In this document: piece after piece, positions 59,023-63,204 of the stretch
Layout of the letters: each line of letters starts with the position of its first letter
Numbering within the stretch: the first letter of the stretch is position 1
DNA from: Enchytraeus crypticus
Lineage: Eukaryota > Annelida > Clitellata > Enchytraeida > Enchytraeidae
DNA: 64,000 nt
Direction: 5' to 3'
NCBI GenBank assembly: GCA_905160935.1
Contig: CAJHZI010000433.1
Location: forward strand, 392,501 to 456,500
The notes under the pieces: generated by a model
Told to the model about the DNA's origin: nothing
Database searches by the model: none
What the model saw: the letters and a program-made list of their open reading frames with translations, nothing else
Made by a program: the position numbers and the translations under genes

Positions 59023-59511
59023 TCATTTAATGATTGTATATTTATGACATCCATTAACAATCTCTCCATCGTTTCTTCTAAAGAATGTTATACTGTGTTT
59101 AGTTTTTTTAACAGCTTCATATAAAGACTTAAATTCTTTAACTTCTCCAGTATCATTATTTTCATATCTGACAGGTTTAGGGTTATTTCTTATACCTCTC
59201 AAGTACTCATGCCTCTGGTCTATAATCTTTTTTGGTTGAACCTCTTTTAGTGGATATTTTCTTGGTCTTCCTCTTGCTCTTCTATGTTTGTCTTCTTCAT
59301 TTTGTGGATCAACCTCTTTTAGTGGATATTTTCTAGGTCTTCCTCTCTTTCTTGTTGTCGTATCTTCATCCTTTGGAGGAAACACTTCTTCTCTCTTCAA
59401 AAGTCCATTTTCAAAAGTCATAAACAACAACTCTGTTTTTCCAGCACGTAGAGCTGGTGTGATTTCAGCATCGATCAACATTTGTCTCAATTCGGCGGCC
59501 GAGTATTTCAT
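59023..59511 (-). CDS. AT-hook protein with C-terminal NUMOD-like motif (Polinton)
   Basis: This 162-residue basic protein starts at the Met of MKYSAAELRQMLIDAEI, chosen because ATATATAAA directly precedes this ATG, as at other element genes; the frame extends 17 codons further upstream. The N-terminal 35 residues look like a SAP-type helix pair. Two AT hooks lie in a duplicated segment (KRGRPRKYPLKEV and ARGRPRKYPLKEV). The C-terminus has FKSLYEAVKKTKHSITFFRR, like the helix-turn-helix of NUMOD modules found with homing endonucleases. A role in binding AT-rich element DNA is inferred. Transcription is divergent from the next gene. Confidence 0.82.
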   Translation of the reverse strand: MKYSAAELRQMLIDAEITPALRAGKTELLFMTFENGLLKREEVFPPKDEDTTTRKRGRPRKYPLKEVDPQNEEDKHRRARGRPRKYPLKEVQPKKIIDQRHEYLRGIRNNPKPVRYENNDTGEVKEFKSLYEAVKKTKHSITFFRRNDGEIVNGCHKYTIIK

Positions 59512-59627
59512 TTTATATATGTAAGAAAAAATATTTAAATAAAATGCAAAATTTACAAACAATAAACAAATAATTTTCTCGTTTGTAAATGTTTTATGTT
59601 AAAATAATAATTACACATAATAAAAAA

Positions 59628-60032
59628 ATGACAGACACAGTAGATGGCACTTCGCTTTCAAGTAAACTGAAAGCATTTTTAATTAGAAAGCTTGAAGAAA
59701 GGCAAACAGTTGTTAAAAAACTAAAGAAAAAGCGAAAGATTATAAAAACACTTTCCTACACTACCGCGGTGGCTTCGATCGTAATTTCCGCAGTGCTAGC
59801 TGCAACTGCTACAGCTGTTGTAATTCCACCCGTTGCTATAATAGTGTTATCCACTTCAAGCGGTATATTGACAGCCTTCGCCAATAAATTTAATTTTCAA
59901 GCTAAAAGTAATAAACTAAATACAGAAATTGAAAAACTAAATAAACTTAATGAAAGATTTGACTTTGTTGTCTCCTGTAACGGAAATCTTGCTGAGGCAG
60001 CCTATAATCAGATTATTTCTGAATTTACATAA
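59628..60032 (+). CDS. Small two-helix membrane protein (Polinton)
   Basis: 134 residues from the Met of MTDTVDGTSLSSKL. An upstream in-frame ATG at 59589 would add 13 residues, but AATAAAAAA directly before 59628 matches the start context of neighbouring genes. The N-terminal third is a basic helix (VVKKLKKKRKIIKTL). Two hydrophobic segments follow (about residues 48-68 and 70-92), separated by PP. A Lys/Glu/Asn-rich coiled coil ends the protein. Comparable small membrane proteins occur in other adintovirus-type elements; the function is unknown. It is convergent with the fibre-like gene. Confidence 0.8.
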   Translation: MTDTVDGTSLSSKLKAFLIRKLEERQTVVKKLKKKRKIIKTLSYTTAVASIVISAVLAATATAVVIPPVAIIVLSTSSGILTAFANKFNFQAKSNKLNTEIEKLNKLNERFDFVVSCNGNLAEAAYNQIISEFT

Positions 60033-60080: not shown

Positions 60081-60353
60081 CTACACTTCCATCACAAACC
60101 TCATTAGTAGAGAATCTGAAGCGTAATGAAATCCTAAATCAACAAACGTTAAATTTTTTCGTAATATTAATTTCAAGTCTGATTTCTTTTGATCTGGATC
60201 TAGATCTCTTACAAGTTTTGAAATAAATTGCCTAATTTTCAATAAAGGTGTACCCTTTTCAGGTGTTGCTGTTAAATTAGCGCGAACTAGAGTTGTTTCC
60301 AAGTCACTAAACATATTTCTCGGTAGTTTTTCAATTTTGTTAAAAGTAAACAT
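60081..60353 (-). CDS. C-terminal frame overlapping the fibre-like gene (-1 frame)
   Basis: A 90-codon open frame starts with ATG at 60353 and lies in the -1 frame relative to the upstream fibre-like ORF, overlapping its last 67 nt. A TGA in this frame sits 9 nt before the ATG. It is globular and charged (LRKNLTFVDLGFHYASDS near the end) without membrane segments. It may be a separate small gene or the detached C-terminus of the fibre-like protein after a one-base deletion in a run of A. No canonical slippery heptamer was seen in the overlap. Confidence 0.65.
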   Translation of the reverse strand: MFTFNKIEKLPRNMFSDLETTLVRANLTATPEKGTPLLKIRQFISKLVRDLDPDQKKSDLKLILRKNLTFVDLGFHYASDSLLMRFVMEV

Positions 60354-61276
60354 TTCAAATCAGTTGTTAAAACTGAAAGAATTCCTTCAACGTCAGAATT
60401 AATTTCTTCATTATTAAATAATTTACTATATTCTAAGGTAATATTTTGCAAATGATTATATTTCATAAGAAATATTTCTCTGTAATTAATTCGTAGGCCT
60501 TGTTCTCTGGAATATTTTGATATAATGGTCAATACATGAGAACAAATAGCCATTAATTTCTTCAAATCAACATTATCTTTCATGCGAGCAATCTGTAGAT
60601 ACTTTTTGTTTAGCGCATCATATCCTTCACTAGGGAAACCGACATTAAAAATTAAATTATCCTTCATATCTAAATCTCCGTTCATTGAACCACCATTCAC
60701 ACTGAGTTTCGTATCAATATTTTTTTGTAGAGCAATGTCATTAGCAACAACATCTCGTTCTACATCCTTTAAGATATCTAATCTTAAATTTTGTCCAAAT
60801 TTGTTAACAAAACTGTCGCAGTACCTCTTTGTAACGACATCCAAATCACTTTCTGGAGGTTGCTTAACATTGAAAATTCTATTGTTGCTCATATCAACAT
60901 TTCCATTCATTGAACCACCATTCACACTGAGTTTCGTATGAATATTTTTTTGTAGAGCAATGTCATTAGCAACTACGTTTTGTTCTACTTCTTTTAGGAT
61001 ACCTACTCTCAAATTATCACCAAATTGGTTAACATAACGATCGCAGTACCCCTTTGTGATGACGTCCACATCGGTTTCTGGAGGATGTTTAACATTTAAA
61101 ATTCTATTGTTGCTCATATTAATGTCTCCAGTGATATCTCCTCCAGATTTGTCAACTTTTGTACTGTCGAGTCTATCAACAAGCTTGACAATTGGTCTGA
61201 AAACTGAGTCTACATGCTCCATCAAATCACCAGTTGTTGAATGCGATTTGCCACCAGTTTTCGATATAGTACTCAT
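60287..61276 (-). CDS. Fibre-like protein with 75-residue repeats (Polinton)
   Basis: 329 residues, start MSTISKTGGK at 61276. Three repeats begin at about residues 45, 120 and 195, each carrying a tail-fibre-type signature: GGDITGDINMSNNRILNV, GGSMNGNVDMSNNRIFNV and GGSMNGDLDMKDNLIFNV, the first two followed by PPE, D-V-TK and YCD. Repeats of this kind form trimeric fibres in phages and related viruses; an attachment role is inferred only. Repeats 2 and 3 are almost identical in DNA at 225-bp spacing. The last about 22 residues lie in the overlap with the next frame and may be aberrant if a base has been lost there. Confidence 0.82.
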   Translation of the reverse strand: MSTISKTGGKSHSTTGDLMEHVDSVFRPIVKLVDRLDSTKVDKSGGDITGDINMSNNRILNVKHPPETDVDVITKGYCDRYVNQFGDNLRVGILKEVEQNVVANDIALQKNIHTKLSVNGGSMNGNVDMSNNRIFNVKQPPESDLDVVTKRYCDSFVNKFGQNLRLDILKDVERDVVANDIALQKNIDTKLSVNGGSMNGDLDMKDNLIFNVGFPSEGYDALNKKYLQIARMKDNVDLKKLMAICSHVLTIISKYSREQGLRINYREIFLMKYNHLQNITLEYSKLFNNEEINSDVEGILSVLTTDLKCLLLTKLKNYREICLVTWKQL

Positions 61277-61330: not shown

Positions 61331-61903
61331 ATGTCAAAGTATACAAACTACGGTGTAACGTTGACTAAAGGTCAGGTCCAAAAACTAAAGAGCGCGTGCG
61401 ATCATGATAGAGAGGTTAAAATACGAATATTAAAAAAGAATTTGTCGGGTAATACGAATCTTCCTCTCACCCAAACTCAAATTAATAAAATTAAAAAGGC
61501 TACATCTGGAATAGAATTGTGTCTGAGTAGAGCACAATTAAAGTACATGGAAAAGAATGGAGGATTTCTGCCGTTGTTGGCAGCAGCCATTCCCGCCATC
61601 GTGGGAGCTATAGGTGGATTGGCAGGTGGAATTAGCTCGGCAGTGAATTCGACTAGACAGACAAATGAATTGAAGAGACATAATCAAGAATTGGAAAACA
61701 TAACCAAGCAACAACTCGGCGCAGGCTTAATCAGCGACGCAATAGCTCCAATCCCCGTTATAGGTAAAACGCTATCAAATGCGTTGAAGAAATTTGGACT
61801 CGGTGGATGCGTCAAGAATTTGAAAGGAGCTCAGTGGGGTAATGGATTGTATTTGGAAAGAGGTGGATCAGGAGTTTTTTTAGAAAGACAGGGGGAGGCA
61901 TAA
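61331..61903 (+). CDS. PX-like virion protein (Polinton)
   Basis: 190 residues; ATG at 61331 preceded by TATATAAAA. The N-terminal region is rich in Lys and Gln (LTKGQVQKLKSACDHD), typical of the DNA-associated small proteins in adintoviruses. A hydrophobic Gly/Ala segment (FLPLLAAAIPAIVGAIGGL) lies at about residues 79-97, then a helix rich in Asn/Gln, and Gly-rich ends (NGLYLERGGSGVFLERQ). Similar proteins have been compared with adenovirus pX/pVI cores; the assignment is by general resemblance. The gene ends TAA at 61901-61903, inside the loop of a hairpin placed behind a slippery heptamer (61876-61912). Confidence 0.8.
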   Translation: MSKYTNYGVTLTKGQVQKLKSACDHDREVKIRILKKNLSGNTNLPLTQTQINKIKKATSGIELCLSRAQLKYMEKNGGFLPLLAAAIPAIVGAIGGLAGGISSAVNSTRQTNELKRHNQELENITKQQLGAGLISDAIAPIPVIGKTLSNALKKFGLGGCVKNLKGAQWGNGLYLERGGSGVFLERQGEA

Positions 61904-61912
61904 ACTTCCCCC
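61876..61912 (+). promoter_or_regulatory. Putative programmed -1 ribosomal frameshift signal
   Basis: In the PX-like reading frame the codons GTT TTT TTA contain the heptamer T TTT TTA (61876-61882), the same slippery site as HIV-1 gag-pol. After an 8-nt spacer (GAAAGACA) comes GGGGGAGG (61891-61898), a 6-nt loop CATAAA, and CTTCCCCC (61905-61912), forming an 8-bp stem with one G-U pair. The zero-frame stop TAA lies in the loop. A -1 shift enters the protease frame, which is open from here to 62337. Confidence 0.75.
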
Positions 61913-62337
61913 AATTTTTAAACTCATTCAAATCTCTTAAACCGCTAAGCAACTTTGATATAATAAAAAAATGTAAAGAGCTAAATGTAAAAAATTTCAA
62001 AGGTGTATTCATGCGAGATGAGCTAAAGGGATCAGTTAGTAATAACGAAAGTTTAATTCTTAATATTGATGACAGCGAAGGGAACGGGACCCATTGGGTA
62101 TTTCTTTATAGTAAGAATGGCAAATGTCTATATTTTGATAGTTACGGCTTCATACCTCCATCAGAAGTTCAACATTATTGTAAAGGAAAGGAAAATTATT
62201 TTAACACTTTTAAAATTCAAGCACCAAACGAAGTCATCTGCGGTCATTACTGTATTTACGTGCTATATAAACTGAACAATGGGAGTCTATTCAAGGATGT
62301 ATTAGATGAATTATACGAAAGAAACAATTTAAAATAA
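61882..62337 (+). CDS. Adenain-type cysteine protease (Polinton), -1 frame extension of the PX-like gene
   Basis: This is the maturation protease of Polintons, related to adenovirus endopeptidase. Counted from the ATG at 62011, catalytic His28 is in GTHWVFLY, Asp43 in YFDSYG, Gln70 in IQAPNE and Cys77 in ICGHYC, the full family set. The family's N-terminal helix (LSNFDIIKKCKELN here) lies upstream of that ATG, at about 61945-61990, and no other in-frame ATG exists back to a TAA at 61840. The frame is -1 relative to the PX-like gene and is open across its stop codon. Expression is therefore inferred to be by frameshift at 61876-61882. Alternatives: start at 62011 with a clipped N-terminus, non-AUG initiation, or a mutated start. 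Confidence 0.88.
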   Translation, partial: RKTGGGINFPQFLNSFKSLKPLSNFDIIKKCKELNVKNFKGVFMRDELKGSVSNNESLILNIDDSEGNGTHWVFLYSKNGKCLYFDSYGFIPPSEVQHYCKGKENYFNTFKIQAPNEVICGHYCIYVLYKLNNGSLFKDVLDELYERNNLK

Positions 62338-62353
62338 TAACTACTACATAAAA

Positions 62354-63082
62354 ATGGTAGACTTGAATACTAACTATTCGAAAATTTATCAAAAAATTTA
62401 CGGTAGCAACTATGAGAGCAAGCATCACGATATATTTCCTAAAAATATATTTATGATACTAGCTGGCAGCACCGGTTGTGGCAAGACAAATCTAATGATG
62501 AACTTCATTATGAAAAAATTAGTGTACTATGATGATATGATGGTGTACACAATGACACCCGATCAAGACGCGTATAAATTCCTTCGGGATTGTAATGATG
62601 AATCAAGGAAGAAGTCTAAAACAAGTCAAGATATTGTTACTTTTCACAACCCAGATGATGGAATAGTTCACCCTTCTGAACTCGATAGAAATAAAACACA
62701 TATTGTAATATTTGATGACGTCATGAATGAAAATCAGAAAGATATGACAGATTACTTCTGTCAAGGTCGACATAATAATGCGAATGTATTCTATTTATGT
62801 CAGAGCATTCATAAGCTGAAAAAACATGGAATTCGACAAAATGCTAATATTTTTATTCTATTTCGACATGATAAAAAATCGCTTAAATATTTCTATGACA
62901 CTCACGTAAGTGGTGATATGTCATTTGAAGAGTTTGAAAAAATATGTAATGAAGCTTGGATGAATAAGCACGGTTACGTTGTTGTAAATCTGTGGGAGGA
63001 ACCTGAATGTGGTAGATATTTGTTAAATTACAATGCAATGTACATACCTGAAAAATATCTAATAATACCTAATAGTACCTAA
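62354..63082 (+). CDS. FtsK/A32-type genome-packaging ATPase (Polinton)
   Basis: 242 residues; ATG preceded by TACATAAAA and 16 nt after the protease stop. Walker A is AGSTGCGKTNLMM (about residues 37-49). Walker B is HIVIFDDVMNE (about residues 114-124). FYLCQSIHKLKKHGIRQNAN and FILFRHDK fit the sensor/arginine region of the FtsK-HerA packaging ATPases. Length is normal for the family. It would pump element DNA into a capsid. The last codons run into a tandem repeat. With the protease it is one of the hallmark genes identifying the element. Confidence 0.95.
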   Translation: MVDLNTNYSKIYQKIYGSNYESKHHDIFPKNIFMILAGSTGCGKTNLMMNFIMKKLVYYDDMMVYTMTPDQDAYKFLRDCNDESRKKSKTSQDIVTFHNPDDGIVHPSELDRNKTHIVIFDDVMNENQKDMTDYFCQGRHNNANVFYLCQSIHKLKKHGIRQNANIFILFRHDKKSLKYFYDTHVSGDMSFEEFEKICNEAWMNKHGYVVVNLWEEPECGRYLLNYNAMYIPEKYLIIPNST

Positions 63083-63200
63083 TAATACCTAAAAATACCT
63101 AATATCTAAAAATACCTAATAATACATAAAAATACCTAATAATACATAAAAATACCTAATAATACATAAAAATACCTAATAAATAAATATATGTATGTAA
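63060..63200. repeat. About 20-bp tandem repeat between Polinton genes
   Basis: AATACCTAATAATACATAAA units, four regular and several partial, run from the 3' end of the ATPase gene to just before the next ATG. The AATACATAAAAAT pieces resemble the start context of the element genes. Confidence 0.93.
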
Positions 63201-63204
63201 TAAA

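Follow-up and report, generated by a model that had tools for sequence, protein, structure and literature searches.

Programmed -1 ribosomal frameshifting is the best explanation, and in our judgment a probable one, for how an element in the genome of Enchytraeus crypticus makes its adenain-type protease, namely, as a C-terminal extension of a PX-like virion protein; the reading is drawn from sequence comparison. The window, as we call it, is the whole 64,000-nucleotide stretch of DNA that was analyzed. Ribosomes translating PX would arrive at a slippery T TTT TTA, an 8-bp hairpin 8 nt downstream would stall them, and a minority would shift their pairing back by one base, so that they miss the PX stop in the hairpin loop and continue in the protease frame. 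The result would be a 335-residue PX-protease (184 residues of PX and 151 of the protease frame) beside the 190-residue PX. The fusion would then be packaged and release the protease; by analogy with retroviruses, the frameshift would restrict how much protease is made, and the fusion would bring it into the particles. Such a -1 frameshift between PX and protease had been proposed in an earlier note on this DNA. Conservation of the heptamer and stem and selection on proteases that have no ATG bear the proposal out, whereas relatives with an ordinary ATG count against it.

Anatomy of the PX-protease junction

The PX-like open reading frame (ORF) occupies positions 61331 to 61903 on the forward strand (190 amino acids, zero frame). 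It matches Adeno_PX (PF05829) with an E value of 0.0012, which is under the curated cut-off, and 153 relatives of the protein were found. The heptamer T TTT TTA lies at 61876 to 61882 in the PX-frame codons GTT TTT TTA and is followed by the spacer GAAAGACA (61883 to 61890), the 5' arm GGGGGAGG (61891 to 61898), and the 3' arm CTTCCCCC (61905 to 61912) of the hairpin, whose 8-bp stem includes one G.U pair. The loop, CATAAA (61899 to 61904), contains the PX stop codon TAA (61901 to 61903) as well as an ATA (61900 to 61902) at the position where the nearest relatives outside this genome begin the protease with Met; those relatives are protein sequences, their ATG being deduced from the Met. All of these features are on the forward strand, and heptamer, 8-nt spacer, 8-bp hairpin, and stop in the loop are each located where the earlier note had put them.

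The same note had placed the protease exactly in the -1 frame and had seen no ATG for its conserved N-terminal helix, and the sequence confirms this: the frame is open from 61843 to its stop at 62335 to 62337, and its first ATG (62011 to 62013) encodes residue 57, within the conserved FMRDEL motif. Counted from the codon that is read first once slippage has occurred, the protease extends from 61882 to 62337 (forward strand), and 302 relatives were found. By sequence, its similarity to known proteases is weak (Pfam Peptidase_C5, E value of 0.015, under the cut-off; 1avp, E value of 0.061). An AlphaFold2 model (pLDDT of 88) has adenovirus proteinase 1nln as its best PDB match in Foldseek, with an E value of 1.4e-7, and the protease is thus predicted to have an adenain-type fold. 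His, Asp, Gln, and Cys residues, which we take to be catalytic, are invariant among 18 sequences, and the protease presumably shares its active-site residue types with adenovirus adenain. In the model, two helices (residues 22 to 27 and 37 to 46) and a strand (52 to 57) start ahead of the ATG at residue 57, and therefore a protein begun at that ATG would miss part of the fold.

The 33-base segment that forms the stem has a folding energy of -15.5 kcal/mol (z of -4.3), and none of 200 shuffles was equally good. The window contains 309 slippery-type heptamers on the forward strand and 319 on the reverse strand; among all of them, this site alone is followed, 5 to 9 nt downstream, by an 8-bp stem that has 5 or more GC pairs, and it was hit twice because registers overlap within the T run. 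When the 5-kb element part was simulated in 200 first-order Markov copies, not one of their 8105 heptamers was followed by such a stem, and the 8-nt distance in the window is inside the 5- to 9-nt range for frameshift stimulators.

Heptamer and start codon in copies of the element

We searched the genome that the window comes from (524 Mb) and scored 150 of 656 candidate places. The resulting copy set of 150 sequences consists of 119 places with less than 100% identity, 30 further loci, and the window, which is present twice (as WIN and L007). Both PX and protease are intact in 104 of the 150, with the protease in the -1 register in 85, in the same frame as PX in 13, and in the +1 register in 6. 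T TTT TTA is kept in 80 of the 85 intact -1 copies. With heptamer and ATG scored together, 64 of these copies have the heptamer without an ATG, 16 have both, 4 have neither (L036, L076, L148, and L149), and 1 has the ATG only; by distinct junctions, the same classes number 21, 12, 3, and 1. L133 has the ATG and the hairpin, and its heptamer is absent. Under the frameshift reading, the four copies with neither signal should make no protease.

At the start position, 58 of the 85 copies have ATA, 9 have GTA, 1 has TTA, and 17 have ATG, and 68 of the 85 have no ATG anywhere between the slippery site and residue 40. The nearest relatives had hinted that the window might be a single decayed copy with a mutated ATG, a possibility that we reject given the 68 copies without an ATG. 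Selection on the protease (see below) also speaks against it, and so do copies identical to the window: 14 of the 104 intact sequences match it from the PX start to the protease stop, including the T run, and since two of these are the window itself, 12 other copies remain, so the ATA does not reflect decay of one dead copy.

A far clade of the same genome, represented by L160 and L167, which are known as stretches of less than 500 bases, has CTT TTT TTA and a -1-frame protease, and its codon at the place of the outside relatives' Met is GTG; L161, of the same clade, has an altered site. The stem of L160 is no better than shuffles (z of -0.67).

The ATG-bearing copies deserve separate attention. 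Start codon and PX stop overlap, with the letters ATGA in L046, L051 to L055, L059, L077, L117, L130, L133, L136, L139, and L146 and TAATG in L140, L142, and L147. Related elements in which an ordinary ATG directly precedes the protease helix, and in which neither heptamer nor stem is conserved, were what the earlier note had held to speak against frameshifting. The first half of this is found, both in relatives outside the genome and in 17 of the 85 copies, yet 16 of those 17 keep the heptamer as well. Copies that retain the ATG may use both routes.

Another group of intact copies is longer by a single base at the T run, with either one more T in it or an A just ahead of it (L047 to L050, L057, L060, L062, L063, L097, L113, L114, and L120; 12 of 104), which turns PX and protease into a single uninterrupted ORF whose length, 335 residues, is exactly what the frameshift reading predicts. 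We rejected the same-frame copies (13 of 104) as proof of a functional fusion. The copies with one extra base mostly occur singly beside copies with seven T's, and for this reason same-frame copies are counted as repeated mutation or homopolymer error; the extra base would stem from a mutational hot spot or from an error at the homopolymer. Could the T run itself be slippery for the RNA polymerase? Transcription through a run of 6 to 7 T's might add one U and give a fused mRNA, and the 12 copies with an extra base would fit that idea. We nevertheless consider transcriptional slippage very improbable: the run is short, slippage needs neither a hairpin nor a codon phase, and the scattering of in-frame DNA copies, mostly as single cases beside T7 copies, argues against it.

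Selection on proteases without an ATG

The proteases without an ATG are under purifying selection. Pairwise comparison of nine of them gave dN/dS below 1 in 36 of 36 pairs, with 35 pairs at 0.06 to 0.26 and the remaining one, based on few synonymous changes, at 0.60. In the 32 codons between the FPQ and MRDEL motifs, the pooled dN/dS of ten ATG-less pairs is 0.14. Purifying selection is thus already at work ahead of MRDEL, which places the start of protease translation before the first ATG. In 6 of 14 representatives, the -1 frame has a stop codon no more than 11 codons ahead of the heptamer; the first 20 codons behind the heptamer are free of such stops in all 14.

Such selection bears on a second reading, that of stop-start or internal initiation, in which the stop and start in the loop couple the end of PX translation to re-initiation on the protease, while the family of the window makes do with a weak ATA start or with protease supplied in trans. 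The overlap of ATG and PX stop in the copies named above, the hairpin that L133 keeps though its heptamer is absent, and the start of the nearest outside proteases at the hairpin position are all in its favor. A near-cognate start at the old position is impossible for GTA and TTA, however, since both differ from ATG at two bases, and the copies with these codons nevertheless have intact proteases under selection. Help in trans, for its part, should relax selection on the numerous copies without an ATG. Considering also the unchanged third bases of the heptamer codons described below, we give re-initiation little probability compared with ribosomal frameshifting.

In three copies (L046, L059, and L067), the junction of one subfamily is joined to the protease of another. 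Recombination of this kind between PX and protease blurs the pairing of protease and junction and is a caveat for the selection result, as a protease may have come to its present junction only recently.

Constraint on third codon positions

Codons were compared among 16 representatives of the 85 intact -1 copies, chosen at less than 93% identity. PX codon 182 encodes Val, Leu, Ile, or Pro; its first base was substituted five times along the tree, but T is its third base in 16 of 16. Where the amino acid is kept, Phe 183 is TTT in 15 of 15 and Leu 184 is TTA in 15 of 15; elsewhere in PX these codons are used at 79% and 24%, respectively, and of the 19 Leu columns the one with TTA varies least. 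The four columns upstream of the heptamer show 3 to 5 third-base changes each, the three heptamer codons show none, and the five columns downstream show 5, 2, 1, 2, and 4. Because PX contains a second run of three codons without a third-base change, and because 20 of its 187 columns have no such change, the freeze is suggestive rather than proof. In the 5' arm of the hairpin, Gly 188 is GGG in 12 of 12, compared to 6% elsewhere in PX; two other Gly columns are equally invariable, but with GGT, not GGG.

These patterns also bear on whether the signal could be a coding accident, with the heptamer merely representing the Phe-Leu codons of a terminal GxGLFL repeat in an AT-rich gene and the inverted repeat being maintained by template-switch mutation. 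The recurrence of the FL motif among PX relatives is what such an accident would leave, and so is a foldback found at the hairpin of one copy (L168, below). The frozen third bases of the heptamer, the GGG in the arm, and an ATG that is dispensable under selection oppose it, as do the G.T pairs at one stem position, which disfavor an origin by template switching. An accident thus appears extremely improbable to us.

Conservation and covariation of the hairpin

Among 46 distinct junctions, which are not independent because many are close kin, 38 fold better than shuffles at the 5% level; the other 8 are L051, L061, L094, L118, L133, L142, L147, and L148. Eighteen junctions could be aligned in register for the stem, and leaving out L142, which uses another register, reduced the set to 17. 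In L142 and L147, the stem is re-registered as GGGTAA/TTACCC, 12 nt downstream of the heptamer. Pairing is kept in 115 of 119 stem cells of the 17 junctions, and two-sided changes are found at pair 2 (L077), pair 3 (L130 and L154), and pair 4 (L159); the change in L130 alters both proteins. When the 3' arms were redealt among all rows, the observed pairing was matched in 5 of 20,000 trials, and with the 8 distinct arm pairs only it was matched in 259 of 20,000, making the latter a modest test. Pair 7 is G.T in 8 of the 17 junctions, which speaks for pairing in RNA. The junction alignment that the earlier note had called for therefore turned out in its favor, with heptamer and stem conserved across divergent copies and compensatory changes in the stem. 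The presence of the hairpin without the heptamer in L133 means that the hairpin may serve another role.

At the frameshift hairpin of L168 (G000:C425:2507040-2507510, minus strand), there is a foldback duplication of about 20 nt. It is a sign of template switching, through which the arms could come to match without selection on the RNA, mimicking covariation.

Splicing is a further way to reach a frame that has no ATG: TTTTTTTAG would be a 3' splice site, and a leader exon with its own ATG would be joined to the protease frame in the style of adenovirus late genes. A T-rich tract followed by AG occurs at every listed junction of an ATG-less intact -1 copy, including L036, L076, and L148, which lack the heptamer, and the sections of PMC8310308 that deal with adenovirus report more than 900 spliced transcripts and do not hint at recoding. 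Splicing predicts neither a compensated hairpin 8 nt downstream nor an all-T tract in fixed codon phase, and in the ATG copies L117 and L136, which carry TTTTTTAA, AG is absent directly behind the tract. On balance we regard splicing as unlikely.

Relatives outside this genome

The nearest protease relatives outside this genome (P0002 to P0009) are 74 to 85% identical to that of the window, and in these eight nearest full-length sequences the protein begins with a Met that aligns with the window's ATA or lies no more than 4 residues ahead of it. Together with the ATG in several copies of this genome, this means that a protease with its own ATG does exist nearby. Among 120 of the 302 protease relatives, as given in the matches listed, the called start of at least 11 is MRDEL, within the fold; a gene finder must begin there if an upstream ATG is absent, which would account for these starts. 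In P0019 and P0080, the upstream part resembles the -1 frame of the PX repeat and the usual start has no Met, suggesting that their DNA may carry T TTT TTA. Among 207 of the PX matches listed, P0189, a partial in-frame PX-protease fusion, is the only relative of at least 235 amino acids.

A search of viral contigs with P0001 as the query gave no match; with the alignment as the query, one remote locus was found, where the match is within a single 337-amino-acid ORF. Contigs of prokaryote genomes yielded two remote loci, both with an ATG for the protease ORF, which in one of them overlaps the preceding gene in a different frame. No match was found in the phage records searched.

A broader proposal is that a retrovirus-like Gag-Pro strategy, with PX-protease made by -1 frameshifting, is standard in many Polinton lineages and of such age that the start codon was lost repeatedly (ATA, GTA, TTA, ATC, or GTG), with the fusion delivering the protease into the particle. 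We hold this to be evenly balanced between right and wrong.

Comparison with known recoding systems

The gag-pro/pol signal of the HIV-1 type has the same heptamer letters as the junction described here, a short spacer, and a GC-rich hairpin. As in retroviruses, the protease would be a frameshift extension of a structural protein; the differences are that the protease is of the unrelated adenain type, a cysteine protease, that the element is a DNA element with PX in place of Gag, and that the stop of the upstream gene sits within the hairpin loop. In PMC8537868, frameshifting of the HIV-1 type is put at about 5%, and adenovirus adenain is said to come from the late L3 region. Compared with adenovirus adenain, the protease here is predicted to have a similar fold but has no ATG before it.

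Frameshifting to an adenain has been suggested once before. A preprint (PMC11071296) reports -1 frameshifts that KnotInFrame predicts in Penton of adintoviruses, as well as "potential Hexon-Adenain (Hexain)" fusions. The two cases are alike in that an adenain is possibly frameshifted from a virion gene in an animal DNA virus class; in the preprint, however, the upstream gene is Hexon and the prediction takes one sentence, whereas here it is PX, with tests of conservation, third bases, selection, and compensatory changes. Polinton/Maverick elements share the protease, the packaging ATPase, and the double jelly-roll capsid protein with the element studied here, and the parts of PMC4028283 and PMC8097293 that describe them give PRO as a separate gene and do not mention recoding. 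In the sampled text of the literature on Polinton/Maverick/adintovirus frameshifting and adenain, no PX-protease frameshift is described. The earlier note had known of no case in Polintons, and this holds for PX-protease but not for adenain as a whole, given the Hexon-adenain suggestion in PMC11071296. A PX-protease frameshift would accordingly be new for Polintons, as far as these partial sources go, while a frameshifted adenain from Hexon has already been suggested. Eukaryotic DNA viruses known to frameshift are relatively few, according to a review (PMC8310308).

If the frameshift reading is true, a Polinton would have converged with retroviruses by joining its maturation protease to a core protein, the dosing and particle entry of an adenovirus-type protease could be explained, and the gene-finder starts inside the fold of some Polinton proteases would be accounted for. 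The idea is directly testable, as one genome holds many natural variants.

The element and its neighborhood

Downstream of the protease, a packaging ATPase gene of the same element lies at 62354 to 63082 on the forward strand (Pox_A32, E value of 1.3e-5, above the cut-off). A double jelly-roll-like domain (PF21738, E value of 1.3e-39) is found within 3 kb past the window end (L169), as is a phospholipase-A2-like protein; the double jelly-roll capsid protein gave no sequence match to solved structures. We take the element to be of the Polinton/adintovirus type because PX-like, packaging ATPase, double jelly-roll, and phospholipase-A2-like genes occur together, an assignment made from gene content. 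PF03175 (protein-primed DNA polymerase B) has many matches in the genome, and among the matches listed, from the 79 of 475 candidates scored, none is on contig C340. The apparent capsid gene of the window's copy seems to be split over two ORFs of 101 and 341 amino acids (L169:1169-2547); this copy may be defective, or the capsid gene may bear an intron.

Several other features surround these genes. A tandem repeat with 10-nt units like CCTAATAATA occupies 63041 to 63201 of the window, at the end of the ATPase gene and beyond. On the minus strand, the neighboring ORF at 60287 to 61276 bears repeats and is fibre-like by appearance, and a Pfam search with it gave nothing above the cut-off; it contains two 225-bp tandem copies (83%) at 60642 to 61091, with GGDITGDINMSNNRI-type repeats. 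A small ORF at 59589 to 60032 has a weak DUF4231/SLATT match (best E value of 9.3e-5, under the cut-off), and a minus-strand ORF at 59023 to 59511 contains AT-hook-like RGRPRKYP repeats and two 72-bp tandem copies.
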